Shown here piece after piece: positions 32,252 to 61,720 of a stretch of DNA of 64,000 nt. Positions within the stretch are counted from its first letter, which is position 1; every line of letters begins with the position of its first letter. The DNA lies in the NCBI GenBank assembly GCA_963422465.1, contig OY730169.1, positions 496,001 through 560,000 on the forward strand. Reading direction: 5' to 3'. A model generated the notes under the pieces. It searched no databases. It was not told the DNA's origin and was given only the letters and a program-made list of their open reading frames with translations. The translations under genes and the position numbers were made by a program. The stretch is from Lichina pygmaea (Eukaryota > Ascomycota > Lichinomycetes > Lichinales > Lichinaceae).

Positions 32252-32677
32252 CTTTATATCGGACAATTGCTCCGGTACCCCCCATTATGCACGATTCTAC
32301 CTTCCATGCCCCCCATCTTTCTTCCATACCCCCCTCGCTTATAGCGATACCTCTCAATTGGTGGTAGTCACACCTCAGATTAAGTACTCCCAAATTTTTG
32401 CAGCATCGGCCCCCAACCGCCCAACTCCATACTGCCGATGAAGTCTCCACACCCCCAAAATGCGATACATGACATCAAAATTGAGATACAACTTGTAGGA
32501 CGTAGAGCTAAGCATTAGATACGACCAGGAAAAAAATCTGACCGAGCAATGAGTGCTGTGTAATTTTTCCAAGACTTATGAAGTGCATACCTTGCTTGAC
32601 TTGGACAGATACCCTACTTTATATGGGGTGGCTTGGCAAAGTGTATGTACTGACTTATGCGAGGGGGTACGGAAGAA

Positions 32678-33267
32678 CGGACAATTACTGCGGTACCCCC
32701 CACTATGCAGATTTCTTACTCCAGTGCCCCCCTATAACTTCGATGCCCCCTCGCATAAGTCGGTACATGTATTTTCGCGAGCCCCTCCATATAAAGCTAG
32801 GTATCTCTTCAACCCACACAGCCCATGGCTGTCATAAGTCTTCAAGGTATCACGCACTACGTAATATTGAGTCAAATTTTTCTCTCAGTCACATCAAATG
32901 CTTAGCCCTATGCTCATCAAGTCAGAACTCATCTTTGAAGTCATAAGTGGTATTTTTGGGGGTGTGGGGGCTTGTCAGTGGTGTAAGGTTGCTCGGTCGG
33001 GTGGCTGATGCCTCAAAAGTTTAGGAGTACCCGTGCCTTGGAGGTACTTCGTACCTCCCCGGAGTAAGGGTGTCCCGACCGAGCTAGCGACGGAGTGGGA
33101 GGTACGAAGTACCTCCAAGGCACGGGTACTTAACATTACAATGGACTGCCACAAACTTATAAGTACCTTGCTAAGCAAGGGGGGCATTGAAGTACAGTAA
33201 GAGGGGGGGCACCGAAGTAAGGAATCTGCATACTGGGGGGTAAAAAACTTACGGCAGTGATTGTCCG
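32678..33267. mobile_element. Inner MULE-like element inserted in the outer one
   Basis: The ends are CGGACAATTACTGCGGTACC and the inverse (ending AGTGATTGTCCG), with homology running about 100 bp inwards from each side, interrupted by small differences. A perfect 9-bp duplication, ACGGAAGAA, flanks it at 32669-32677 and 33268-33276. The insertion point lies inside the right inverted repeat of the outer element, so this copy is younger than the outer one. After subtracting the foldback element at 33030-33126 it is about 490 bp. Its inner right part is related, in inverse orientation, to 32380-32450 of the outer copy. Confidence 0.75.
33028..33128. mobile_element. TA-flanked foldback MITE (97 bp) inside the inner MULE-like element
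   Basis: TA at 33028-33029 and 33127-33128 flank 33030-33126. The arms (33030-33057 and 33098-33126) are inverted repeats starting CCCGTGCCTTGGAGGTACTT; each arm is also a small palindrome (GGAGGTAC-TTC-GTACCTCC). An empty site exists in the window: the homologous part of the outer element reads GGGAGTACTTAA on the minus strand at about 32378-32389, against GGAGTA[insert]TACTTAA here. This shows directly that TA was duplicated on insertion. Confidence 0.75.
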
Positions 33268-33369
33268 ACGGAAGAAAGATGGGGGCATGGAAGATAGAAT
33301 CGTGCATAACGGGGGGCACCGGAGCAATTGTCCGTCTTTATATATTCCTTTCCATTGATTTGCATTTCA

Positions 33370-33554: not shown

Positions 33555-33740
33555 CTCGTTATTTCTGTTTTTTGCCAATTTCACAGGGCTCGTACGTACA
33601 GTTTACTCCACAACAGAATTCCGGTCGGTGAAACTGTTGCGTCGCCACTTCATCCCCTATACGTACGTACGTGTCAGCAATACCCAAACTGAGAGCGACT
33701 ACTCCTTCCTTCGCGAACGCACTGCCGAACGAACAAGATC

Positions 33741-34956
33741 ATGGACACCGGTGACTTTGTCGACTTCGAAGGTGAAGATGATGTGGAAGACCATGCTGAA
33801 CCTGTTGAGCGGTATCGCCAGGGTTTATACTATCCGGTCTGCATTGGAGAAACGCTTGATCGCAAATACTGTGTAGAGCATAAGCTTGGTCATGGTGGCT
33901 TCTCAACTGTCTGGTTGGCCCACGAGATGGAAAAGAATAAGGATGTCGCTCTTAAAATTGTGGTCCCAGGGGAAGCTGGAGAGCGTGAGCTCTACATGCA
34001 AAACAAGATCCTTCGCCTCGTACCGAACACATCCAATCTTCTCACGTACGAGGCAACCTTCATCCTTAGTGGCCACCATGGGGATCACCGAGTTCTTGTG
34101 TTTCCCGTGTGAGGGCAGAATCTGGGCTCTCGTCTGAGACAAGCATCGATGGCTAGCCGCATGTCCGCTGCCTATCGGTTGTTGAACACTTTGGCGTCCC
34201 TACACCGCAGTCAGATAGTACATCGTGGTGAGTTGGCATTGGTCTTCTCACTTGAGCCGGATGCTAATACATTCCATAGACCTGAACCAAGGGTGTGTCC
34301 TATGGGGTATGAAGCCCCTCAACCATCACGACACAGACACCCAATATGAACTCCTTGGTCGGCCGCAGAAGATCCTTTTGAGGACGTGGAAAGAGGGAGA
34401 GCTCGTCAGGCCAGTCAAGGTCCCCGAAAGTCTGGTCACGGACAAAATCTATCTCGGCGACTTTGGCCATTCGATCATGGCTGGCACTTCTGTGAAGTGC
34501 CAGGTACAGTCCCCTGCTGGCTACTGTGCCCCTGAGCGATTCCACAACGTGGATCCAAGTTATGCCAGTGACATGTGGAGCTACATGTGCCTCTTCGTGG
34601 AGCTATATCTTGAATACCCTCTTTTCATTAGTAGCGGGTCAGTCTCGCAGGTGTCAGACCTAGTCCGTGTTCTAGGTCCTCTGCCTGAGCATTGGAAGGG
34701 GTCATTCACTTTTGCTGATGCAAGCCTTGACTGGTGGTATGATCTGAGCAGGGGACCGGACCCTGTGATCAGTCTTCCGGCGATAATCACACACAGACGT
34801 CCCAAGATGGGTCAAACTGAGCAGAACTATTTGCTATCTGTCATGGCCAAGGGATTCTGCTACGACTACAACCAGCGTATCACTGCCGATGAGCTTCTGC
34901 AAGACGCTTCCTTCAAATTTCTCCTGAAGATGCACTGGACTTCTGGTTCTGATTAA
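33741..34956 (+). pseudogene. SRPK-like serine/threonine kinase gene with an in-frame stop
   Basis: Exon 1 runs 33741-34227 and exon 2 34280-34956, joined by a 52-bp GTGAGT..TAG intron that restores HRDLNQG. The start MDTGDFVDFEGEDDVEDHAE is followed by the Gly-rich loop LGHGGFSTVW, the VALKIV lysine, HRD, DFG (LGDFGHSI) and CAPERF. These are all landmarks of the fungal SRPK-related kinases that target SR-type proteins. Two defects are seen. A TGA at 34110-34112 interrupts the frame after VLVFPV, while the kinase frame continues unchanged beyond it; CGA to TGA is the simplest origin. The Mg-binding Asn of the catalytic loop is replaced by Cys (HRDLNQGCV for the usual N at that place). No splice signals remove the TGA in a credible way. 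The gene lies between transposons and is probably an inactive paralogue. Confidence 0.7.
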
Positions 34957-35889
34957 TAGCCTACATCCTCGTGGTGGAATGATAGTCACTGGCTAGCAAG
35001 CAGGAGACAGAACAGCTCACCAATCACAAGCTTTCTTGATCTCCATCAAAATCTGCAATCATAGCATGTTCCGTGTGCAGTTGGTAGAGTTCATCATGAC
35101 CAATGAATATTGGCTTGACTGATCACGTGGCTGGGGCTGGGAATTCAACACCTGGAGGCCCGACTCTAGCCAGAGACAGAGCATAAAAACCACTGATAAG
35201 GACTGTTTACTGTGCTTTACACATCTACTGTGCTGCCTTTGACTTAAGAGAAGTCATTATCCTGGGCTTTACTTGTAGTCAAGTCTGGGTGGGATGCCCT
35301 TAGTCAACACCAAGCTTGTATCTTATTATTACTGCCCATCAGTACCTTGCTTGTAGTAATGTTGAGTACATCACACTTCTTGAGACACAGTAGACTTGAC
35401 TCCTGACGTTCCTCGCCTTCCACTGTCATCCTAGACGTCATCGTGCACTTGGGCGGCTCGCAGTGTCCCATTGAGTACGGTACCGGTCGGGTAGTGGTCG
35501 CTGATGAGTGACAGCCACGTACGGCATCCATCTTCATTTGGACCCTTTGTCCAGCTGTTCACCTCCGATCACCAGCTTGGATAGATGCTCAGTGGTGTGC
35601 CGTCGTGGCCGTGCCCAGTCGAAGCTGCAGCAGCGATGTTTCGCTCCCACCCTACAGTCCGGCACGTGTGCCGGTACGGTACGCAAGTGTTGGGATTTCA
35701 ACACTGCCGAGGTCCAATCTCGGGAAGGACTACTGCGGGCTGCAGAGCAGAGACCGAACAGGTGTTGAATTCGTGTATATAGCGAGTTCTTCTTCCTAGA
35801 GAAATTGATAACGGCTCTTCCCTGCCTCCCAGCTCCAACAGCAAGATCGCGGGCGGGCTGGTCACGTGATCTGTCCACGTAGAAAAGAA
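34957..35889. other. Intergenic region, nothing recognised
   Basis: This is the 3' flank of the kinase gene up to the Copia element. Short frames lack support. An ACATAAAAA-like TATA word (about 35181) and scattered ACTTG repeats were noted but have no gene attached. Confidence 0.4.
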
Positions 35890-36081
35890 TGTTGGGATAA
35901 TCGGTGTCGGTGACACTTCAGAATGACGAGGCACTTGGAAGACAATAGGATCTTGTATTCAATAGGATGTACTAAGACATTCGTCTACAATGAAAAATGA
36001 GAAAACCCTTCTTCCCAATCTAGGGTTAGCGCCCTTCTGTAAGTCACGTGGTATGACGTTGCAGATCGCCCAACTTCAACA
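35890..36081 (-). repeat. 3' LTR of the Copia element
   Basis: The LTR begins TGTTGGGATAATCGG and ends CTTCAACA on the plus strand and is nearly identical to 39151-39343. AAGAA precedes it as the target duplication. Confidence 0.9.
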
Positions 36082-39000
36082 CCCCCCCTCGAGCTGCACC
36101 TCCACTTTGCAATTTAGCTCTCCAAGGTGAGTATGTAGGCCCACCGTCCTCTGCTGCTTCCGTTAGCTGACATCTCGTCTACTGTGTCAGACCAAGTCCC
36201 TGCAGCTTCTCCTTCCGTGCCTGAGTGCTGAGTGGCTCGTCCGCGAGCATTTCCGCAGAAGGCACGTATCCGACCTCGGAATCGTCGGTACGGACACCGA
36301 TTCTTCTGTTGCGAAGGCACCTTCCTTTGCCTTCCCTGTTGCCTTGCGGATCCGCGTACTCCGCCTCGCTGGCTCTGTTTCCTGTGCCCTTTCGGACCCT
36401 TCCTTCGTGGCCTTGCCTGTGGCCCTGTTCTCTTGTGGACCTCTTTCAGGCTCCACACGACCCCTTCCTTCGGACTCGTTCGACTCCTGAGCTCCTTCCT
36501 CAGGTGCTTCAGCTGGTCCTTCAGCCACTCCTTGTCGGGGCTGCCAAGGTGAGTCTTCCGTCCCTTCCGCGTCGTATCTTACTGACTCTTCGTCACTGTC
36601 TTCTTCGTCCGGTTCGTCCGACCGATCAGGTACGCCTTGCACCTGTCTCTCTCTCCTTTGCTCGGGCACTGAGGTGACCTGTGGCCACCCCCCCTCAATG
36701 CTGTGCTCGGGCCCTGAGGTGACCCGTGGCCACCCCCCCCCCTCAATGCTGACCTTCTCCTTAGGTCGCACCTGCGCTCGTTGTCCCACGATCTCTTCCA
36801 TGAATCGTACGGACGCTGCAGCCGCAATCTTCTTCGTCTCCGGGTTCCATACCAGGTAAATGTGATTACCCCGGTACCCCACCATTACTCCTTTCCAGGC
36901 CAGTTGATCTAACTTCTTCCTCTTCTCCTTCGGTATATGCACGTATGCGACACACCCAAAGGCTCTCAGATGGCCTGCGTTGACGGTCCGTCCCGTCCAT
37001 TCTCCTTCCGGCAAGTCCTTCCTGTCCCCGTGTGGCAGCTTGTTGTCCAGGTACGCTGACGTCTGGGCTGCTACGGGCCACAGCTGCATCGGCAGCTCCG
37101 CGTCCGCCAACATCGCTTTCACCCGACCGATAATCGTTCGGTTATACCGCTCGGCAACCCCGTTTTGCTGTGGGTTGTACGGCACGGTGGGTTCTTCTCT
37201 TACTCCCTCTGGCTTCAGACGCTTCAAGTACTGACTGATGTATTCTTTGGCGTCGTCACACCGTATCCTGCACAGCTTCTCGCCGGATTCCCGTTCCACC
37301 ATGGCTTTCCAGCTGCCAAAAGCGACGGGTAGCTCACTCCTGAGCTTCATGGGATACACCCACGTCATCCGGGTCCAGTCATCAATCATCGTCAGCAGGT
37401 ACCGTGATCCGTCGTACCCTTCATCTTGCAGAGGTCCGCACACATCGGTGTGCACCAGTTCGAGCTTTCTTGTCGTTGTTGCTTCAGCCTTCTTCCGGAG
37501 AGTCTTCTGCATTTTGGCTAATATGCAGTCCTCACAGTTCTCGACTTCCTCCTCATCGTACTCGAACCCTTCGAGTTTGCCGGTGAGTGCTGCCCTCTTC
37601 ATGACAGCCTTGCTTGCATGCCCTAGCCTCCGGTGCCAGGTCTTCTTCTTCGCGTCTGCAGGACTCTCCTGTCCTGCCCCGCCGGTCGGGCTCTCCTGTC
37701 CCGTCGCGAGGACTACCTCGCCATTTGCCTTCAAGTGGTACGTGCCCTTTTCTCTTCTGGCCGTTACCCTTCTTCTGCCATTCTTTATTATGGCCATCTC
37801 CCCATTCTTTGTTGTTGTCTCGAACCCCTTCTTGTCCAGATCTGAAACTGACATCAAGTTGGCAGTCAATCCAGGTACGTACAGCACTCCTGTGACTGTC
37901 GCAACACCGCTCTGCTGGTTGAACCGGGTCCGTACAGTTCCTACACCTTTGATCGCAAGCCTGTCTCCGTTGGCTACTGACAGGTGGCCTCCCATGGGTT
38001 TCAACTCAACGAATAGTCCGAGATCCCAGCTCATGTGTCGGGTCGCACCGCTGTCAACGATCCAATCGCTCGTCCGTGGTTCCCTGATCATCAGCTCCGG
38101 TACAAGGCAAGTGAGGTAGGTCTTCTCTCCTTCCTCATCCTCCCGGTACGTTGCCGCTCTTGCCTTTTCCCCTCTCTTCCTGGGTTTCACCGGGGGTTCG
38201 TCCTCCAATGGGGTTCCGTCTGCTGACCGTGTCGCGAAACATTCAGACTTCCTGTGCCCTGTCCGGTCACACCGGAAGCACTTCATGTCCTTTCCGTCTC
38301 GTCGGCCCTTGCTCCGTCCTTTGCCCTCTTTACGGACAGCCAGTGCCTGCTCCGCTTCTCCCTTGACGATCCGTGCCTCTTCTCCTGCTAACTTCTGCAG
38401 GACCTTGTCCAGTTCGTCGATCTGATCCGTCGTTATGAGGATCTTCTTCATGGTGTCGTATTCTGGCGTCAACGACTCTAGGAGCAGGATCACTAATGTC
38501 TTTTCCGGCAGTTTCAGCGTCGAGTCGTAGCTCTCTATTTCAGCATTGAGCACACGGATCCTCGACCCTCTCTCTTCGATCGTTCGGCCGAGGTCCTTCG
38601 AAAACAGCTGTACCATCGCGTTGTGCAGCTTCTCGTTGTTCGGCCGTTCGTGGATCCCTTTCAGGGTCTTCCAGATGTGGTAGGGGTGCTCGATCCGTCT
38701 GACGTGCTTTTGCTGCTCTTCACTAATTGACGACAGTATGATGTCTGCTGCCTTTCCTTCTTCTGCCTTGCTATCCTGCCACTCCTTTGTGGCCTCGATC
38801 CGTTGACCTTTGGATCCTGTTGCTGACGTTTGGGCAGGCTTCATCTCTGACTCTTCTGGCTCTACAAGGACGGTGTGCCAGACTCTTGCGGCCAATAGCC
38901 GCATCCTGATAACTTGTGCCCAGTCTTCATAGTTCTCTGGGCCCCGGAGCAGGACCTTCCTGCCCCGTTCCTTCTTGTCTTCCATCCTATTGGCTTGCCT

Positions 39001-39150
39001 TCTGCTAACGTCGTGGCTAGCCCTTCCTTACGGCCTTTTCCTCTAGGCCCTTCTTTGCAGCCTTTTCCTCTAGGCTCTTCTTCTCCTCTTCTTCTTCGAC
39101 TTCTTCACAGTCGATTCAACCTCGTCAGCGGGATTCCCGGGCTCATAACC

Positions 39151-39343
39151 TGTTGGGATAATCGGTGTCGGTGACACTTCAGAATGACGAGGCACTTAGA
39201 AGACAATAGGATCTTGTATTCAATAGGATGTACTAAGACATTCGTCTACAAATGAAAAATGAGAAAACCCTTCTTCCCAATCTAGGGTTAGCGCCCTTCT
39301 GTAAGTCACGTGGTATGACGTTGCAGATCGCCCAACTTCAACA
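39151..39343 (-). repeat. 5' LTR of the Copia element
   Basis: This is the partner of the LTR at 35890-36081. It is followed on the plus strand by AAGAA, the second copy of the target duplication. Confidence 0.9.
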
Positions 39344-51911: not shown

Positions 51912-52866
51912 TGGGGAGAGTCAAGGGGGTGGTCGTAGGTGTTTCTATCAGCCCCTTGTCTTCATACTGTTACTCCTCTTCTCTCCCCCCCCCCCCCTCC
52001 TTCTCCCTTCTCTCGACCTGCTCTGGTCTCTTCGTCTCTCCTCTACTTTTCTATCTCCATCTGTCTCTGTCTGGCTGAATTTCCGCCTGCCGTTGCACCG
52101 TTGCGTTCGTGTCGCGGCATGGAGCTCCCCCCCGGCAGTAAACCCTGCAGTGGCCACATCTAGCCAAACAATCCGCATCCCGACGATTACGGTGCAGGCA
52201 GGATTCTCAGACAGGCTTACATCGTCATGCTGCTCAGCGCATCCTCCGCACCGCCTGCATGAAATATCAAATGGAGTTGAGAGCCTGGCGTGCATATCAC
52301 CCCCGCCGACGCACCTGACCTTAAATCCGAGGCAACACAGGCACTTAAAGGGGTCTAGACCTGACGAATACTACCGAGGAAGCCCCGAGACGCTAAGACC
52401 CGAGAAAAGTACCGAGCACGGCTCGAGACACCGAGACCTGCCGAAAGGAGCACGGAGAGCTGCGGTTGTGCATCTACAGCACACAACGTACTGCACGTAA
52501 TGACGATCAACATGCAGCACTAGAAATAGACACGGCTCTGCGTACAGTACCCCATACGTAGCAGGAGGCACAGCGCTAGGAAGAGGACCGCGGCTGCACT
52601 AGCGTCCGGAGCAGCAGCAGTACCTCGGTACGGAGGTAGTACGGTATGCCACAAGCACCGCGGCGGACTGTATCGTCATCTTCCAGAACTTCTAGCCTAG
52701 GCTAACATGGGACTAGATCGTGGTAGACGTCTACTCCTGGACGGTATCTCGGCCAAGAATACTGAGCCCAGAAGGAGCCCCGCATTTTAGGAATTCCGTG
52801 GTCGGCACCGCGAAACCAGCAGTCGTCGTGACAACCGGTGTCGTCTAAGCTCCTAACAAACGACGA
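51912..52866. other. Intergenic region between RAD50 and the LINE
   Basis: The stretch holds a run of C in pyrimidine-rich sequence (51985-52035) and GTAC words near 52545-52650. The last bases, AACAAACGACGA at 52855-52866, are the left target-site duplication of the LINE. No gene was seen. Confidence 0.5.
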
Positions 52867-53460
52867 ACAACTACGCCCAAGGACCATCACTTCTGACAAT
52901 CACCGCATTTTGTCAGAAGTCCTGGAAACCAGCCGAGTTCCACCCTCAAACCACCAAAACCTTAAGGTGAAACCCCATCACTTTGGAAAACTCAACCTGT
53001 TTGTCAAAAGTTGTGATCCCAGACTCTACGATCTTCAACTTCAACAAGCAACAGACTACCAATAACAAGAGAGAGAGAGTGGCCAGTGGTTTTCCGGAGA
53101 ACTGGGGACAGGCCCCAATTACCTAGGAACACTCAGTCTTGGGGTGTGGTCCCAGGATTGAGTAAGTACTCCCAGTTCAAGAGGAAAACAGAGAGTGGAA
53201 AAGTGGAATGACTTGAGCTCTACTCTTGGCTGGCAGAATCTAAGAATTCAAGGAAAGTCTAGATAGGGGGTCTGGTCCCTAGTCTAGGTGAATACTCCCA
53301 GACCTAACCCAGAGCTTAGAAGGAAGAAGCTGCCCAGGAAAGTCTAGCTCTGAGGTCTGGACTCAGGGCTAGATCACTACTGCTGGGAAGTCAGGGTACT
53401 CTTCTCTTTCCCTCAACTCTCTCAACTCTCTAAAGGTATCACTACTGGAAACCCAGAGCT

Positions 53461-54915
53461 ATGGCCTCAAAAAAGAAAAAACCCAGTCATCCCCAATACA
53501 GCTCTAGAGTACCAACCTCTATACTGGCTCCCAGATCCCCCAACATCCAATCCAGCTCTTCTTCTTTATCTATTCCCCCAGAGCCAAGCCAACAAGATAC
53601 CTCTCTGGCAACACCAGACCAACAAGCTGGAGAAAACACACTGCCAGTATCCCAGATTGTTGAAGTCTGGCTAAACCAGTCTAAAGCTCCCCCAAAGGTA
53701 CAGGCAGCATGGAAGAAAATCACCACCCAGCTAGCAAGCCATATAGCTACACCTTCCACCACTGGACAAGAGATCCAGAAAGTTCTCCAGAGACTGGACA
53801 GAATTGAGAAAAATATGCAAACACCAGCATCTAATCTCTCCTATGCCCAAGCAGTCCAGAAAGCTACAGTTCAGGAAATTCCAGTTCCCCAGAGAATCTT
53901 CAGTGAGATTACTATCAGACCTGGAGTCCAAATAGCACAGACAGGAAACAGAACACCCTCCCAGCTTGTGCAGGCTATCAAGAACAAAGTCCCTACATCT
54001 TGCCAGAAAGATATCAGAGCAGTCAGAAAGCTTCCTTCTGGTGATATTATCATCTCTCTGGAATCTCCCTCAGCCAAGACCCAACTAGAACAGAACAAAG
54101 ACTGGATCTCTGCAGTGTTCTCTGAAGAAGCTAAGATCTCTTCCAGAATCTTCCCAGTCATGGTTCATGGAGTTCAAATAAAGGACTTTAACCCAGATAA
54201 CCTGGAAGAGACAACTAAGACTATCTTCAGACAAAACCCTGGTATGGAAAACCAGGTCAAAATCCTGAGAACCTACTGGACCAGAAAGTCCAAACTTCTT
54301 AAGAAATCTGTGACATCTCTGCACATAGATCTTGCAACACCTGAGCAAGCTAATCTACTAATCAAGAGAGGAGTTGTACTTGGCCACATGATCCATGAAG
54401 TAGAACCAGCACTTCTGGATACATCAGTGGTCCAATACTACAAATGCTCAAAGTTTGGACACCAGGCAAGAACCTGCCAAGCTCAAGCACAGTGCCTGGC
54501 ATGTGGAGGAAAACATGCCAGAAGAGATTGCCCAATTCCTCAAGAAAAGCTAGTTCCCAAATGTGCTAACTGTGGAGGGAAGCACTCTGCTTGGGAAAAA
54601 GCCTGCCCTAAAAAGCAGGAAGCTACACAGAAAGCTAGAGAATCCTGGCTCACCAGACCTGGAAGATACACCACTCCAGAAAACATCTCTTCCACTTTTA
54701 TCTTCTCTCCAAGCCAGACCACTAATACTGGAAGTGGCCCTAATCTATCTGATAGAGAGGATGGGAAGAAAAGAAAACAGGGAGAGCTGGTGAGAACTAG
54801 ATCAAGTGCAAGACTTAGCTCTCAAGCAACCTCTCTGCAAAACCTGAAGACTACCACTAATCTTCCAAAACAAAACTCTTTTGAGATACTTGTGGATTCT
54901 AACCCAGAGGTTTGA
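53461..54915 (+). CDS. LINE ORF1, zinc-knuckle nucleic-acid-binding protein
   Basis: The product is 484 residues, starting MASKKKKPSHPQYSSRVPTS. The N-terminal third is Ser/Pro/Gln-rich; the middle resembles the RNA-binding part of LINE ORF1 proteins. Three zinc knuckles lie near residues 325-380: YYKCSKFGHQARTC, CLACGGKHARRDC and CANCGGKHSAWEKAC. In the first knuckle the expected first Cys is Tyr, so it may not bind zinc normally. The protein should coat element RNA during retrotransposition. The stop TGA overlaps the ORF2 start (TGATG), an arrangement that suggests termination-reinitiation. Confidence 0.9.
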   Translation: MASKKKKPSHPQYSSRVPTSILAPRSPNIQSSSSSLSIPPEPSQQDTSLATPDQQAGENTLPVSQIVEVWLNQSKAPPKVQAAWKKITTQLASHIATPSTTGQEIQKVLQRLDRIEKNMQTPASNLSYAQAVQKATVQEIPVPQRIFSEITIRPGVQIAQTGNRTPSQLVQAIKNKVPTSCQKDIRAVRKLPSGDIIISLESPSAKTQLEQNKDWISAVFSEEAKISSRIFPVMVHGVQIKDFNPDNLEETTKTIFRQNPGMENQVKILRTYWTRKSKLLKKSVTSLHIDLATPEQANLLIKRGVVLGHMIHEVEPALLDTSVVQYYKCSKFGHQARTCQAQAQCLACGGKHARRDCPIPQEKLVPKCANCGGKHSAWEKACPKKQEATQKARESWLTRPGRYTTPENISSTFIFSPSQTTNTGSGPNLSDREDGKKRKQGELVRTRSSARLSSQATSLQNLKTTTNLPKQNSFEILVDSNPEV

Positions 54916-57900
54916 TGAGTACACCAACTCTCAACCTTCTCCAGTATAATGTGCAGAAAAGCCAGACATGCCAAGATCTTCTACTAGCTAACCCCAGACT
55001 CCAGGAAGTGGATCTGATTGCACTTCAAGAACCTTGGAGAAATCTATACCAGGAAACAAGTACCTCAACAGTCTTCTCAGCCTTCTACCCTCTTCAAGAC
55101 CAAGTGTTAGGGAGAACTCTGGTTCTAATCAACAGAAGAATACAGAGGTCAGCTATAACCCCTGTGTTCTGGAGCAAGGATTTAACATCACTGGAGATAA
55201 GAGTGCAAGCAAAAGTGTTCTGGGTACATAACCTGTACTTCACACCCACAAGCCAGGAAAACTACAGAGTATTAGCAGAAGCTCTACTGGATGTACTGGC
55301 CCAGGCACTGGAGAAAGAAGGAGAACATATTCTTCTGACTGACTCAAACCTCCACCACCCATCCTGGTCAAAATCCTCCCAACTCTACTCTGAACTAGCT
55401 ACTAAGTTCAAAGAAATCACAGATGATCAAGGACTAGAGCTGGCAATAGCACCTTTCACACCAACAAGAGCAAGAACACTGGCAGAGCCTCCCTCCTCTG
55501 CTATTGACTTATCTTTTATTTCTATATCACTTCTTAATTCCTTTATTTCTTCCCAGATTAACCTAGACTTCCACACAGGTTCAGACCATAGACCAGTTCA
55601 GACAATTCTAAGTCTGGAAACACCAAAGAAAGCCAGAACCCACCAAAGAAACTGGAGAACACTAGATCTGGACCAAGTCAAGAAAGAAGCTAAGAATCTT
55701 CCCCCTATTCCACTACTACTTAACAGAGAGGAAGTGGACAACTATCTGGAGAATCTAGACAAAGCTCTTCAAGAACTGGCTGACAAGACAACAAGACCTC
55801 TGAGAGACTCAAAGTACACTGTTCCCTGGTGGAACCAAGAGATTAAAGAGAAAATTAAAGAGGAAAGAAAACTAAGAAGAAAAGTCTTCCAAAACCAAGA
55901 ACCAGTCTACAAACTTGAAAAGGTAATAAAGGAAAAGAAACACCTGATCAAGAATGCTAAAAGAAAGACATTCAGAGAACAACTCCAGAACCTGGCTGAA
56001 ACACAAAAGCACTGGAAAATAGCCAAGTGGGGTAAAGAAAAAGCTGGCAAACCACCAGAACTTCCAATTATTCCAGAGCTCACAAAGGAAGATGGAGAAA
56101 CTGCCAGAACTTTCACAGAAAAGGTAGAAGTATTCAAAACCCAGTTCTTCCCTCTACCTCTCCAGCCAGTACCAGAATCCCAGGACCAGCCAGCCAACCA
56201 CCAACAACACCAGCTATCTCAGGAAATCTCCAAAGAAGATATCCACAATATTCTGAAAAAGAAAAAACCTTTTACAGCTCCTGGGAAAGACACTCTACCC
56301 AATGGATTTCTAAAGGTATTAGGAGACTCTTTCAATGAAAAGATAGCCAAAGTTCTGGAGGCCTGCTGGAAGCTAGAATATTTCCCTGACAGATACAAAG
56401 CAGCCAGAACAATATGCTTGAGAAAGCCTAGCAAAGGATCCTATTGCTATGCCAAAGCTTGGAGGCCAATAGCACTTCTCAACACAATTGGGAAGCTGAT
56501 GGAAGCTCTGGCAGCCACAAAGCTAAGTGAACTGGCTGAGAAAGAAAACCTACTACCAGAAATCCAGATGGGCTTTAGAAAAGGAAGATCAACTGAGTCT
56601 GCACTATTTCTACTCACTTCCCAAGTTGAAAAAGTCTGGAAGAAAGGAATGGTAGCAAATCTTCTTTCTCTGGATATCTCAGGAGCTTATGATAGAGTTC
56701 TGCCAGAAATTCTCAAGAAAATCCTGGAGAGAAAAGGAATCCCCAGCTGGTTTGTTAACTGGATCTTTTCTTTCACTACCCAAAGAAAAACCTCTCTTGT
56801 CTTTGATAATTCAGAGTCTTCTTTTTTTCCAGTACACTGTGGAGTCCCTCAAGGTTCACCTCTCTCTCCTATTTTATTTCTTTTCTATATTTCAGATCTT
56901 CATAATACTGTTCATACACCAGAGAAAGGTGTATCAGCTCTGGGCTTTGCAGATGACACAAACCTTCTGGCATTTTCCCCTTCTCTTAAAAGCAATCTCC
57001 TGAAGCTAAAGTCTACTCACTCCAAGTGTTTAGACTGGGCAAGAAAACATGGAATGAAGTTTGCACCTGAAAAGTATGAACTTCTCCATTTTTCTAGAAG
57101 AAGAACAGATAATCTTCAGCTCAGTCTAAGACTTGGAGAAGTGGTACTACAGCCTAAGGAAGAAGTGCGTATTCTGGGACTACACTATGATTCCAAGCTT
57201 CTCTGGAAAAAACACCAGAAAATCATGTTACAGAAAGCTTCCAAGTTTTTCTCAGCACTTTCCAGAACTACTTTTTCTACATGGGGTCTACCTGTTCTCT
57301 CTGCTAGACTTGTCTACACTGCAATACTGAGATCACTTCTCAGCTATGCAGTAGGAGTCTGGTTCAATCCCCACAAAAAACCTTCTAATATTTCTTCTCT
57401 AAATCTTTTCCAGACTAAGTGTCTAAAAACTATAGGAGGTGTCTTCAAAGCTACTCCTACATTTCTTATTGAAGGAGAACTATTCCTACCACCTCTTGAT
57501 CTTTATTTCAAATTTAGAACAGCAACTTTCCTACAATCTTTCTATTTTTCCAATACTTCTTCTAATCCTCTCTCCTCACTTCTCTATAAGCTCTTTTCCC
57601 AGATCACTGTTTTTGTTTCTACTCTGAGAACACCTCCAAAGTCTCTGTCTACTATCACACCTAACTGGAAAGCAAGATGGCTAGAAGAACTAACCACTAA
57701 CCAAGATTACTCTAAGAAACAATTTCAAGAAGTGTTTCAGAAAGAGTGGGAAGCCAGATGGCAGGCAAACAGACAGAAATGTTCTTCAGTCTGGGAGCTA
57801 TTTTGCAGACTACCCCAAAAGAAAAATCTCAAAGTTTTCAAAGACTTGAGAAAAGCTGAAGCTAGTCTTTACTTGCAGATTCTATCAGCAAGGATAGGAC

Positions 57901-58175
57901 TAGCCAGCTTTCTTTTCAGAGCAAATGTTCCTGACTTCCAATCCCCTCTATGTTCCTGTGGTTTTGGAGAAGAGACTGCTCAACATATTACTTTCTCTTG
58001 TAACAAGTTTCTTACTCAAAGACAGCAAGCCACTTTTCTTTCCTACAATTTCTCTACTTTACTTCAAAAGCCTAAAGTGCTTAAAGAATTTCTTCTCTGG
58101 TTTATGTCTTTGAAAAGACTAGACCAGTTTAACTTAGCACACCAACTCTTACCAGAAAACCTATCATCTCTGTGA
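54915..58175 (+). CDS. LINE ORF2, APE endonuclease and reverse transcriptase
   Basis: The product is 1,086 residues from the ATG at 54915 (MSTPTLNLLQYNVQKSQTCQ). The endonuclease domain (1-230) keeps the N of LLQYN, the E of ALQEPW, the TDSNLHHPSWS motif and SDHRPV, all expected for activity. The reverse transcriptase (about 430-700) has APGKDTLPNGFLK, MGFRKGRSTESALF, SLDISGAYDRV, GVPQGSPLSPILF and the catalytic FADD in LGFADDTNLL. The C terminus has the LINE zinc motif CSCGFGEETAQHITFSC. No RNase H domain is seen between RT and the zinc motif. The enzyme nicks target DNA and primes cDNA synthesis on the nick. Confidence 0.93.
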   Translation: MSTPTLNLLQYNVQKSQTCQDLLLANPRLQEVDLIALQEPWRNLYQETSTSTVFSAFYPLQDQVLGRTLVLINRRIQRSAITPVFWSKDLTSLEIRVQAKVFWVHNLYFTPTSQENYRVLAEALLDVLAQALEKEGEHILLTDSNLHHPSWSKSSQLYSELATKFKEITDDQGLELAIAPFTPTRARTLAEPPSSAIDLSFISISLLNSFISSQINLDFHTGSDHRPVQTILSLETPKKARTHQRNWRTLDLDQVKKEAKNLPPIPLLLNREEVDNYLENLDKALQELADKTTRPLRDSKYTVPWWNQEIKEKIKEERKLRRKVFQNQEPVYKLEKVIKEKKHLIKNAKRKTFREQLQNLAETQKHWKIAKWGKEKAGKPPELPIIPELTKEDGETARTFTEKVEVFKTQFFPLPLQPVPESQDQPANHQQHQLSQEISKEDIHNILKKKKPFTAPGKDTLPNGFLKVLGDSFNEKIAKVLEACWKLEYFPDRYKAARTICLRKPSKGSYCYAKAWRPIALLNTIGKLMEALAATKLSELAEKENLLPEIQMGFRKGRSTESALFLLTSQVEKVWKKGMVANLLSLDISGAYDRVLPEILKKILERKGIPSWFVNWIFSFTTQRKTSLVFDNSESSFFPVHCGVPQGSPLSPILFLFYISDLHNTVHTPEKGVSALGFADDTNLLAFSPSLKSNLLKLKSTHSKCLDWARKHGMKFAPEKYELLHFSRRRTDNLQLSLRLGEVVLQPKEEVRILGLHYDSKLLWKKHQKIMLQKASKFFSALSRTTFSTWGLPVLSARLVYTAILRSLLSYAVGVWFNPHKKPSNISSLNLFQTKCLKTIGGVFKATPTFLIEGELFLPPLDLYFKFRTATFLQSFYFSNTSSNPLSSLLYKLFSQITVFVSTLRTPPKSLSTITPNWKARWLEELTTNQDYSKKQFQEVFQKEWEARWQANRQKCSSVWELFCRLPQKKNLKVFKDLRKAEASLYLQILSARIGLASFLFRANVPDFQSPLCSCGFGEETAQHITFSCNKFLTQRQQATFLSYNFSTLLQKPKVLKEFLLWFMSLKRLDQFNLAHQLLPENLSSL

Positions 58176-58355
58176 TTTTATTTTCTCCAGACACTGCATA
58201 TTCTTCCAGATAATTCCCTAGTCTTACCCAAGTCTCAGTTTTTATTCCTTCAAAGGTTTTCTGGGAAAAAAAAGCATGTATCTAGAAGTTCTGCATGGCT
58301 CACCAGCCAAATCAGAGTAAGAATAAAATAAAATAAAAAAAATAACAAACGACGA

Positions 58356-58834
58356 GAAGGAAAGCTCTGCTAAGACAATCTGGCGTGGCTCGTGGTGGGG
58401 CTGCTTCTGCCACACCCCTCCTCGGCCGACGCACGGCCAAGTCATAAAGCACTCGCGATGTCAGAACGTCCTTTTTGGGCCGATAACAACTCATGGCCCC
58501 CCGGCAAAATTGCTCCCCCAAACATGTAGAGATCATCAGCCTTGAGCTCTTTCAAGCAAGTTGGCGCCCGGATTAAGATTTCACCGTGATTACATCTCAC
58601 CGATGTTCAGCCACTGGGCCTTCTACCACCACCACTTGGCATCAGCCTCGGCCCGACTGCCCAGACAACAGTGCTAAACGATGTGGGAAGTATTGTAGCT
58701 TCGATAGTGGCATTTTCAGTGGCAACATCTTCGAAGGAGCTGGGTTTTTACTCCTAGCATTGTCACGCACAGGCACAATGACCAGTGTATACCAGCACTG
58801 TCACAATCTGACAGCAGCCGGTCTGGGATAGATG
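58356..58834. other. Right flank of the LINE, no feature recognised
   Basis: This sequence was contiguous with 52866 before the LINE inserted. It is GC-rich, with no supported gene; part of it may belong to the adjoining Gypsy fossil. Confidence 0.4.
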
Positions 58835-59420
58835 TGACGTGGACACGATCGCCAGCTGGCCAGAACCTAGAGCTGTCCGGGAAGTCCAAGAGCTCCTAGG
58901 ATTCTGCAACTTCTACCGACGCCTTGTCTACAGCTACAGCCACATCGCTGCCACGCTTATAACTTTCACCGAATTGCACCTGGCTCCAAGTGGTGGGAGC
59001 CCCTAAACAAAGGCAAACTGTGTATGTATGAAGGATATTTTCAAGATCACAACAGCAACCCCCACCCCCATCGCCTTCCACAGCTGCAAGCGAGTGGATG
59101 CTGAAAGCCGCTACACCACAAGGGATCAAGAGCCACTGGTGGCAACAGATGGGTTCAAGACGTGGAGGTATATGTTCGGAGGAGCAGCCCACAAGGTGCT
59201 TGTGCTCTCAGACCATCTGAACGTCCGCCAGTTCCTGCCGACAAAAGCCCTCAAACAGGGGCAGGCCTGACTGGCCGAGCACCTTTCAGGATTTGATGTT
59301 GAAATCAAACACCGTCCCGGGCGGCCAAACACATGGGACGGACCATCCAGGGCCCCCGCTGAGCTGTATCTGGGTCCTCGTCACAACAGACGTCTATCGA
59401 AATACAGTATTCTTCTGACA
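58835..59420 (+). mobile_element. Ty3/Gypsy retrotransposon fossil (RT end and RNase H region)
   Basis: Translated pieces resemble the end of a Gypsy reverse transcriptase (WPEPRAVREVQELLGFCNFY) followed by the RNase H/tether region (CKRVDAESRYTTRDQEPLVA, VLVLSDHLNVRQFLPTKAL, HLSGFDVEIKHRPGRPNTWD). The relic may extend to about 59620, where weaker integrase-like sequence may follow. The element is old and broken, with several breaks. No LTRs were found on either side. Confidence 0.7.
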
Positions 59421-59710
59421 TGTTTCCATGAAAAGCTTCTAAAGAAGGCCTGCCATGTCATGAAAGTTCAAATTACTATTTATCATGCCGGACCTGCCTC
59501 GGTGGGCCACCTAATCACTCTGATTCACCAACATGGCTGGTGCCGCTATCAATAAGACCGAGAGAGAACGTGCCAGGCAGCTTTGATCGAAGAAGGCAGC
59601 GACAAACAACAGCGACGTCTCTTCCTAGGATGACCACACATCAATGAACACAGCCTTCCAAGGCATTGACAAGTGCTTCCACTGCTGAGTCCTGTGGACT
59701 GGGTACTCAG

Positions 59711-60460
59711 TACCCGTGCCATGGCGGGGTATTACCCCCCCCCCCCCTCCCGTCCCTTCGGTACGACCCCTCCATCCGGAGAGGTGTCGGACAGCTGAAC
59801 GGTCCGGACATCTGAACGGTCCTTTCTTACCGGAATGAATTGCAATGATTATAACTTCACAACGCAATGACTAGATCAAAAAGTAAGTGGCTTGTTTGAT
59901 TCCTCTACTTCTTTCCTATAGACCCTGAAGTTGAGGACTTCTCTTAATTCTTGTGGTGTTGCTGAGAAATTGCGATAGTTGTCGCTCAAGAACAGACTTT
60001 CAACAACATCCATTTTACAACTCTTAGAACTCTACAACTAGATAAACAAATAGCAATTTCTTATGTGCTTATCCGATTCTTCTGCTCTTCTTCTATCATC
60101 CTCCAAGTTACGAGGCCTCTCCTGATGATGTTGTTACTTTTGGGTAGCTGTTGCAGCCTAAGTCGCCTGAGTGGTGGCCCAGTGCGGCCTCGTCACGAGA
60201 GCTCGCTTGTCTTACGAATACACCTATTTTCTCCTCTCAAAAGTCGTTGTGCTAGGACATCAACAACCTTAGCTAGCTTTGAGATGGTAGCTTTATTATG
60301 GCTAGAGATGGATGCGAGCCTTAGCTTCCTTGCGGTGGAATGGTGGTGGTTTGAAATTGATGGCTATTGACAGATTTGTCGGGGATCGTTCAGCTGTCCG
60401 ACACCCCTCCGGATGGAGGGGTGCCCCGGACGTACCGAAGGGACGGGAAGAGGGGGGGAG
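59711..60460. mobile_element. Inverted-repeat DNA element related to the TA-foldback family
   Basis: The left end after TA (59711-59712) is CCCGTGCCATGGCGGGGTAT followed by a run of C, as in the small element at 7015-7077. The next stretch (59749-59800, CCCGTCCCTTCGGTACG and so on) recurs inverted at 60387-60447, with AGCTGTCCGACACCCCTCC in the right arm. These 50-60 bp arms enclose about 580 bp with no ORF, so the element is non-autonomous. The outermost right end with CACGGGTA was not found, so that side is truncated or rearranged. A 17-bp duplication (GGACA[GT]CTGAACGGTCC) is present inside the left arm. Confidence 0.55.
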
Positions 60461-60630: not shown

Positions 60631-61720
60631 ATGATGCTGGGTGGTACTGAAAAAATACCAACTATACCTATCGAGATTATCGGAGACGCCCTCGAGCAGC
60701 AACAACAACGCTGCCTGCGGTCAGTTACTGGCGGCTTCAGGGCCACCAGCCGGAAGCAGCTTGAGAGCGAGGCCGCTGTCCCACCCCTCCGGGCGCACAT
60801 GGCACGACTGCAGCTACAGGCGCGTGTCAGGATGGAAGCCTCCGGGGTCCGGACAGAGATTCAAGAGGCCTGCGAACGACTCAAGCGTCAGCTGGCCCGA
60901 CGACCGGGCCGACGTCGCCGCGCCTACATCTCACCAGGCCAGGCGCGACACCGCTGGGCAGAGTCAATCCTCTGGCCTCAGCGGCCACTGGAATCCACCA
61001 AGGGGTCTCTGGGCCTGCCCCCGTGGGCCGACAGCCGCTCCGCAGACACTCCACCCCTAGGCACCCCCCCCCACGAACAGTCTTGCAGGCCCGCCTGCTA
61101 TCGGAGCAATGGTGCTGGGAGAGATGGCACGAGCTCCACGGTGGGCCCCCACCTCAAATCCAGCTGCTGGACCCAGATCCTGGAGGGGGAGACAACCGGA
61201 AGCCGGACAGGATGCCGTACCGGGCGTCTCTCCGGCTTCGCGCCGGCCTATCCAAGGCCCAAAGCAGCATCTTAACGCAGATGCGCACAGGTAAGATTAG
61301 GCTGGCAGCCTTCCTCTGCAGGCGACAAGTCCCCGGCTTCCCGACGCCGGCTTGTTGCTGCGGAGCGCAGTGGGAGACTGCCAAGCATGTTGTTCTAGAG
61401 TGCCCACGCCTGCAGCGAGTACGCCGCAGTCTTTACACCGCGACTGCTACTACTGACTACCAGGTGATGATCTCGCGCCCGCGGCCCGCCGCCGCCATCA
61501 CCTCGTGCATCCTACGCCACGGAGTTCTCCCCCAGTTCTCCTGGGCTCAGGAGCAGCTGGATACTGGTTACTAACCAGTCACGCCCCACGTTCTGTAGAT
61601 TACTCGAGAGCGCTGCAGGGAGAGGTTTTTTACTCGGTTGAGTTTTCCTAGCCTAATTCTATAGTTAGCGTAGCCTAGATACACTAGCGCTAGAATGGTG
61701 TAGGAATTCAATCAATCAAT
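60631..61720 (+). mobile_element. 5'-truncated LINE fragment, GC-rich lineage (ORF2 C-terminal part)
   Basis: The sequence corresponds to the region after the reverse transcriptase of a LINE ORF2. It reads LEQQQQRCLRSVTGGFRATS and VPPLRAHMARLQLQARV in one frame up to about 61065. After a single frameshift near a poly-C tract it continues as RASLRLRAGLSKAQSSILTQ and ends with the zinc motif CCCGAQWETAKHVVLECP and a stop at about 61574. A 3' UTR follows, ending in a CAAT repeat (TCAATCAATCAATCAAAC, about 61708-61725), a common LINE 3' tail. It is GC-rich like the host, unlike the intact LINE at 52867, so it represents a separate lineage. The 5' end shows truncation at or before 60631. Confidence 0.7.

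Follow-up and report, generated by a model that had tools for sequence, protein, structure and literature searches.

An intact, recently inserted LINE of the ascomycete Lichina pygmaea that is nearly free of CpG, possibly through counter-selection

A 64,000-nucleotide stretch of the Lichina pygmaea genome (contig OY730169.1, positions 496,001 to 560,000 of the forward strand; the whole stretch is hereafter the window) carries, at 52867-58342 on the plus strand, a long interspersed nuclear element (LINE) that is almost devoid of the dinucleotide CpG. That is, a single CpG is observed in the region 53096-58342 against 229.5 expected from base composition. The account that we put forward, tentatively, is that this is a recently mobilised, intact LINE in whose lineage strong counter-selection has kept everything past the first ~230 nt without CpG, most likely since CpG lays the element open to silencing or hypermutation by the host. 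More tentatively still, the retrotransposon may have escaped a CpG-directed defence, be it silencing through 5-methylcytosine (5mC), repeat-induced point mutation (RIP) at CpG or an undescribed fungal sensor of CpG in RNA, by purging the target dinucleotide, silent sites and untranslated regions (UTRs) included, in which case it would represent the end point of an arms race.

The LINE, whose ends are uncertain by about 1 nt, is flanked by 13-bp target-site duplications, the left copy at 52854-52866 (TAACAAACGACGA, with two CpGs inside) and the right copy at 58343-58355, which are identical at 13 of 13 positions. Its 5′ end (52867-53095) is the sole part with several CpGs and is followed by the rest of the 5′ UTR (53096-53460), 365 nt that are CpG-free and include three diverged 46-nt repeats (at 53125, 53251 and 53336). 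Open reading frame (ORF) 1 (53461-54915, 484 aa) and ORF2 (54915-58175, 1086 aa) overlap by TGATG, with the ATG of ORF2 inside the overlap at 54915, and a CpG-free 3′ UTR with an A-rich tail (AATAAAATAAAATAAAAAAAA) completes the element (58176-58342). There is no internal stop in either frame. ORF2 matches the Pfam endonuclease family Exo_endo_phos_2 (E 4.6e-14, residues 104-228) and the reverse transcriptase (RT) family RVT_1 (E 5.3e-35, residues 506-757), and carries a C-terminal Cys/His motif read by eye; among solved structures, its sequence is best matched by a chain named RNA-directed DNA polymerase and by LINE-1 ORF2p (E about 1e-13). Zinc-knuckle-like CCHC motifs were likewise read by eye in ORF1, the Pfam zf-CCHC match being weak (E 7.2). 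The endonuclease and RT in ORF2, the 13-bp duplication and the A-rich 3′ end are those of a LINE of the apurinic/apyrimidinic (AP) endonuclease type, and among the direct repeats of at least 40 nt reported for 30-64 kb none flanks it as long terminal repeats (LTRs) would. The perfect target duplications and the two intact frames indicate a structurally intact LINE that was inserted recently, in agreement with a first-pass annotation made from the letters alone, which had pointed to the same open frames, endonuclease and RT landmarks and duplications.

Both ORFs share the CpG deficit (0 versus 72 expected in ORF1, 1 versus 132 in ORF2), and it is found at every codon position, with 0/17, 0/25 and 0/29 observed over expected at positions 1-2, 2-3 and 3|1 of ORF1 and 1/35, 0/43 and 0/50 at those of ORF2. 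CpG is also absent from the 365 nt of 5′ UTR (22 expected) and from 145 nt of the 3′ UTR (4.8 expected). The whole LINE has six CpGs, at 52874, 52904, 52934, 53029, 53095 and 57168, the last of which is the only one in ORF2 and lies within an Arg codon CGT; AGR accounts for the other 76 of the 77 Arg codons (AGA 73, AGG 3, CGN 1). CpG-free runs of 4073 and 1182 bp result, against a maximum of 246 bp elsewhere in the window. When the LINE proteins were re-encoded by synonymous draws with the LINE's own third-base frequencies (1000 draws per ORF), the mean CpG count was 61 for ORF1 and 118 for ORF2 (minima 44 and 94), and even permutation of the LINE's own CpG-poor codons (2000 per ORF) gave 22 and 35 (minima 11 and 21). 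The observed/expected (o/e) CpG ratio of four host ORFs is 1.21-1.31. Within the LINE, CpA stands at 1.0-1.1 of expectation and TpA at 0.65, and in the ORFs ApG and CpT each come to about 1.6 times their expected level. The contrast drawn in the first-pass annotation between a coding sequence with almost no CpG and with AGA/AGG for Arg, on the one hand, and CG-rich host genes and a second LINE at 60631-61720 (a C-terminal relic, CpG o/e 0.81), on the other, was thus confirmed, and the CpG ratio and codon comparison proposed there put the LINE far from host values. The deficit proved stronger than described; it is not uniform, however, the first 230 nt holding five of the six CpGs.

Codon usage as the sole cause was rejected, because the UTRs past nt 230 are CpG-free and the junction of third-position C with first-position G of the next codon is found 0 times against 79 expected. 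An artefact of assembly or conversion was also rejected, CpGs being kept in the flanking duplications, as was RIP directed at CpA, since neither a loss of CpA (1.0-1.1) nor a gain of TpA (0.65) is seen. On the last point the abundance of CpA had already been held against RIP in the first-pass annotation.

Deamination and RIP are transitions that turn CpG into TpG or CpA and leave the pattern of purines and pyrimidines unchanged. Because transitions keep that pattern, decay of this kind leaves the count of pyrimidine-purine (YR) steps untouched. In the region 53096-58300, YR steps number 958 against 1300 expected from base composition (0.74), with TG+CA at 1.05. The same ratio elsewhere is 0.96 for the Rad50-like ORF, 1.03 for a Leu1-like ORF, 1.02 for a SET-domain ORF, 0.96 for an Hrq1-like ORF, 0.95 for the ORF of a copia-like element, 0.96 for the LINE relic and 0.98 for the flank. 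In 1-kb tiles, two edge tiles being excluded, YR was 0.705-0.781 in five of five LINE tiles and 0.861-1.094 in 57 background tiles. A protein-matched null was built from 300 synonymous draws of the LINE proteins with LINE base frequencies and no CpG rule. Relative to this null, YR steps number 282 versus 320 (standard deviation (sd) 7) in ORF1 and 592 versus 673 (sd 9) in ORF2, i.e. 874 versus 993 (sd about 11) or 119 short in both together, with CpG at 1 versus 179. The shortfall is seen at junction 2-3 (0.71 versus 0.85, sd 0.04, in ORF1; 0.77 versus 0.85, sd 0.02, in ORF2) and at junction 3|1 (0.83 versus 0.90, sd 0.03; 0.74 versus 0.87, sd 0.02), whereas total YR o/e in seven controls (the four host ORFs, the copia ORF and two pieces of L005, a relative described below) departs from their own null by no more than 0.06. 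In the 5′ UTR (53096-53460), 59 YR steps were counted versus 90.5 in base shuffles, with none of 5000 shuffles as low and TG+CA at 0.86; the three diverged repeats in this region make its sites only partly independent.

The signature of an element shaped by 5mC deamination or CpG-directed RIP, namely loss of CpG with an unchanged purine/pyrimidine pattern, was therefore not what was found: the pattern is changed, and the gain of TpG+CpA is mixed (up in the ORFs, 0.86 in the 5′ UTR). As many as roughly half of the CpGs lacking from the ORFs could have turned into TpG or CpA; the remainder cannot have. Since the purine/pyrimidine pattern is itself altered, many of the absent CpGs cannot have been lost by C-to-T transition, and decay of that kind alone fails to explain the deficit, although it may have contributed. 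CpG-directed mutation or selection had been offered jointly in the first-pass annotation. The former, as C-to-T change and as the whole cause, does not survive a YR count 119 short in the ORFs and 31 of 90 short in the 5′ UTR, with third bases that switch between purine and pyrimidine to avoid CpG; selection, or another process that eliminates CpG, is supported.

The choice of third bases points the same way. At fourfold codons of the LINE, the frequency of a third-base pyrimidine is 0.194 before G versus 0.565 otherwise for NTN (p 3e-7) and 0.404 versus 0.699 for NCN (p 5e-7); the bias runs in the opposite direction in host genes, and none is significant in the copia ORF. At NCN codons not before G (n=329), third-base A, C and T have frequencies of 0.301, 0.274 and 0.426, for which purging predicts 0.329, 0.297 and 0.374 and deamination 0.435, 0.250 and 0.315, the base preferences behind the predictions being drawn from NTN codons not before G (n=184). 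At NTN codons before G (n=62), T stands at 0.194, where purging predicts 0.42 and deamination 0.57, which means that T is avoided besides C. Deamination fails both tests; purging agrees with the first, and in the second it gets the direction right but not the size. Simulations, which were rough (12 runs per model; purge runs still held 13 CpGs and deamination runs 108, and the latter kept Arg CGN by construction with sparse hits) and are used for direction only, gave a total YR of 990 under neutrality, 993 under deamination and 938 under purging, versus 874 observed, and a pyrimidine frequency at NCN not before G of 0.571, 0.561 and 0.678, respectively, versus 0.699 observed.

If counter-selection was at work, it may have operated as follows. 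A host defence directed at CpG in repeats, for which 5mC silencing and a CpG-targeted RIP-like process are candidates, would silence or destroy the copies that bear CpG, and these would fail to propagate, so that the surviving lineage would be CpG-free and blind to the defence, which may have acted in the present fungus or in a previous host. The escape reading, if true, would require a defence powerful enough for even one CpG to carry a cost. Silencing or hypermutation of repeats through CpG would seem the most economical agent in fungi, where it is documented; RIP, which would leave synonymous transitions behind, is a less likely sole agent than silencing. CpG-biased RIP-like mutation affects the MATE element of Aspergillus nidulans and elements of Microbotryum (PMC2621366), RIP-like hits at TpCpG lower the fitness of Gypsy elements in Microbotryum (PMC5381629), CpG-biased hypermutation occurs in Rhizoctonia solani AG8 (PMC4014442), and transposable elements (TEs) are hypermethylated in a rust fungus (PMC12774611). 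A literature search of titles and abstract openings, mainly open-access, found no description of a CpG-free or CpG-purged fungal transposon.

Several observations weigh against counter-selection or limit how far it can be pressed. The argument is drawn from a single copy of the LINE in one window. The raw YR ratio of 0.71-0.78 partly overstates the effect, since the LINE protein itself lowers YR: the protein-matched null is 0.88 for ORF1 and 0.83 for ORF2, lower than in the seven control sequences (0.93-1.01), and the LINE proteins favour codons of purine runs and pyrimidine runs (53461-58175). Part of the YR loss at positions 1-2, the change of Arg CGN to AGR, would also be the outcome of decay combined with protein selection. 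TG+CA in the ORFs exceeds the protein-matched null (628 versus 542, or +86), which decay would also yield, and in the simulations this quantity fails to separate the models (purge 628, deamination 615). The simulated YR at 3|1 was 356 under neutrality, 357 under deamination and 363 under purging, versus 326 observed, and the purge simulation gave pyrimidine frequencies of 0.428 (sd 0.081) at NTN|G and 0.514 at NCN|G, versus 0.194 and 0.404. Because it undershoots both the observed YR deficit and those at NTN|G and NCN|G, something besides simple purging is at work, with a purine preference before G that exceeds what purging gives. Some mobile sequences persist, or once persisted, in this genome with their CpG, namely the young copia-like element (0.87) and the LINE relic (0.81). 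Finally, the first 230 nt, the expected site of an internal promoter, keep CpG, which is awkward for promoter methylation as the sole selective agent.

In these first 230 nt, five CpGs are observed versus 11.4 expected, and their clustering has a binomial P of 1.4e-6 given expected shares, a flattering value since the fifth CpG was itself used to place the boundary; TG (11 versus 8.1 expected) and CA (26 versus 22.1) are both above expectation. The 5′ end (52867-53110) forms a hairpin with arms at 52884-52899 and 52910-52925, imperfect and partial copies of which recur 91 nt downstream, and the 254-nt stretch has a somewhat more stable fold than shuffled sequence (z -2.37, equalled by 3 of 200 shuffles). 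The first 230 nt may thus be a younger or differently constrained module.

Among the alternatives, selection could have acted on RNA, CpG in the cytoplasmic transcript or ribonucleoprotein being sensed or degraded by a ZAP-like factor or a fungal analogue so that CpG-free LINE RNAs win. CpG is absent from UTRs and ORFs alike, and as the dinucleotide is self-complementary, composition cannot tell DNA from RNA; according to published abstracts, CpG suppression through RNA sensing is established in vertebrate viruses. However, UpA is no lower than in host ORFs (0.64 versus 0.28-0.41) and the presumably transcribed first 230 nt keep CpG, which leaves this alternative unlikely. We also know of no fungal sensor of CpG in RNA. 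Horizontal arrival from a CpG-poor host, the other origin offered in the first-pass annotation, with a composition that is the donor's and in which the present host plays no part, appears slightly less likely again. It would agree with the third-base GC at CpG-neutral codons (NTN not before G), which is 0.41 in the LINE, 0.88 in the four host ORFs and 0.77 in the copia ORF, and with the CpG richness of the LINE relic, but a CpG-poor genome made by deamination would leave YR steps undiminished, the mechanism would be left unaccounted for, searches of viral and genome contigs found no such donor, and to our knowledge no genome has a CpG o/e as low as ~0.00.

Long-term 5mC deamination or CpG-biased RIP to TpG/CpA, with frames kept by selection, seems improbable whether alone or as the major part of a mixture. 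It could draw on the excess of 86 TG+CA steps, about half of the 178 CpGs lacking relative to the null, on the depletion of CpG by 5mC deamination reported for rust-fungus TEs (PMC12774611) and on two stretches of the same window that look decayed, 34451-35450 (CpG 0.43, TG+CA 1.38, YR 0.98) and 58851-59300 (0.46, 1.33 and 0.93). CpG-specific decay therefore seems to exist in this genome. Both stretches were chosen from windows with CpG <0.45, the YR table leaving out those starting at 2551, 17801, 19601 and 19701; they were preselected for low CpG and neither was established as a repeat by search, points that weigh against the support they lend to counter-selection. Against decay stand the YR deficit in the ORFs, NCA codons that are not enriched, the depletion of T|G, and the low TG+CA and YR of the 5′ UTR, and in the rust younger TEs hold more CpG sites, opposite to the young LINE copy (PMC12774611). 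A CpG-specific transversion process, e.g. from CpG to CpT or ApG, that removed the sites by mutation is the least credible alternative and would come as a surprise. The ApG and CpT excess would follow from it, as would the replacement of NCG by NCT at 8 of 11 sites compared with L005, and at NCN not before G the T frequency (0.426) is intermediate between the predictions of purging (0.374) and of G-to-T change (0.473); but the base in excess before G in NTN codons is G (0.53) rather than A, and the ApG/CpT excess is also an arithmetic result of missing YR steps. No CpG-specific transversion process is known to us.

Among known systems, the CpG-targeted RIP-like hypermutation of transposons in the basidiomycete Microbotryum (at TpCpG) likewise has CpG as the vulnerable site, and hits reduce element fitness (PMC5381629), but the copies bear C-to-T scars, whereas the purine/pyrimidine pattern of the LINE goes beyond such scars alone. 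TEs of the rust Austropuccinia psidii also show CpG loss, driven there by 5mC, but the younger ones are richer in CpG sites than the old (PMC12774611), unlike the young, intact and nearly CpG-free LINE. RIP hits on Tad1 of Neurospora fall at CpA and CpT (PMC2621366), unlike the CpG loss seen here. In vertebrate RNA viruses, too, a parasite genome is selected against CpG (ZAP/KHNYN), but the sensor there is a vertebrate RNA sensor that is not known to have a fungal counterpart. CpG depletion in these viruses is partial. Fungal genome defences are usually inferred from damage, and a LINE without the target site would complement that record from the opposite side. If the proposed counter-selection is real, CpG itself would be penalised and the strength of the penalty could be estimated, and the LINE, as a naturally CpG-free control, would help to tell whether a methyltransferase, a RIP factor or an RNA sensor is the fungal machinery that reads CpG. 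The YR step test with a protein-matched null helps to split decay from purging in one sequence and is usable on any transposon library.

The LINE is of the endonuclease-RT type and probably Tad-like, Tad being a clade label that we apply provisionally. It shares with Tad1 of Neurospora crassa and Tad-like LINEs an AP-type endonuclease with RT in ORF2 and possibly a zinc-knuckle-like ORF1, and differs in its CpG o/e of about 0.00 and in lacking the RNase H match that the related L005 shows. An RNase H domain after the RT is common among Tad members, yet not universal. The C-terminal 341 aa of ORF2 gave no Pfam match to RNase H at E values of 10 or less, while L005 matches PF00075 (E 1.7e-12), and residues 891-933 of ORF2 are unmatched in the tblastn pieces where L005 carries the domain, suggesting, from this alignment, that RNase H may have been lost from ORF2.

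In the scan of genome contigs, the best 80 of 152 matches were followed up; 83 loci in all were compared with full ORF2, of which 25 reach E 1e-4. Among the best 15 of the 83, the leading match was L005 (29% identity over 900 aa, E 1e-105), followed by L004 (28% over 391 aa, E 2e-37) and L015 (174 aa, E 2e-9). L005 (1-4879 of VBAU01000016.1, titled as a Bacteroidetes metagenome-assembled genome (MAG)) is a LINE that has an ORF1 as well as endonuclease, RT and RNase H, also matched by ORF1 in tblastn (E 1e-14), with CpG 0.67, TG+CA 1.22 and YR 0.96; the contig is probably eukaryotic contamination of a bacterial MAG. L004 (1-1701 of JALVNE010000109.1, titled as a Sedimenticola MAG) is a LINE RT fragment in a bacterium-binned contig that is probably eukaryotic contamination as well. 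At the 294 residues identical in ORF2 and L005, a distant pair (29% identity) for which the comparison is illustrative only, codons with internal CpG number 22 in L005 and none in the LINE, in which all 11 CGN sites read AGR and the 11 NCG sites read NCT (8) or NCA (3); four comparable C|G junctions of L005 correspond to AG (2), TG (1) and GG (1) in the LINE. Searches of viral contigs with ORF2, the L005 RT piece and a two-row alignment gave no relative, and a 58-aa RT core gave three weak loci there, of which only L001 matched full ORF2 (E 1e-4, 60 aa), leaving no confirmed LINE relative among viral contigs.

Elsewhere in the window, the copia-like element on the minus strand at 35890-39343 has LTRs (35890-36081 and 39151-39343) identical at 191 of 193 positions and a single ORF of 932 aa that matches gag and integrase but not RT; it is young and probably non-autonomous. 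Since its CpG ratio is 0.87, recent insertion here need not bring CpG loss. The LINE relic at 60631-61720 is 28% identical to the LINE over 117 aa (E 7e-14). The sequence around the LINE looks fungal in character: the Rad50-like ORF at 48331-51015 matches 7zr1 (E 2.6e-105), which we take to be Chaetomium Rad50, the depositors' name being uninformative, and 9bi4 (DNA repair protein RAD50; E 7e-15). No Rfam match reached the gathering score across the window; the 10 matches up to E 10 within the LINE were all far under it and included no ribozyme. The region 33693-35400 is protein-kinase-like coding sequence split over frames (Pkinase E 6e-11 at 34225-34956), within which ten 300-bp windows starting at 34451-35151 have CpG of 0.13-0.44 with TpG and CpA raised, which looks like CpG-specific decay. 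By eye, 58851-59650 looks like a relic of Gypsy RT/RNase H, with 14 in-frame stops over 58360-59620. Terminal-inverted-repeat-like arms were also observed at 59766-60422 (40 nt, 95%) and 32260-33334 (54 nt, 94%), possibly of miniature inverted-repeat transposable elements or small DNA transposons.

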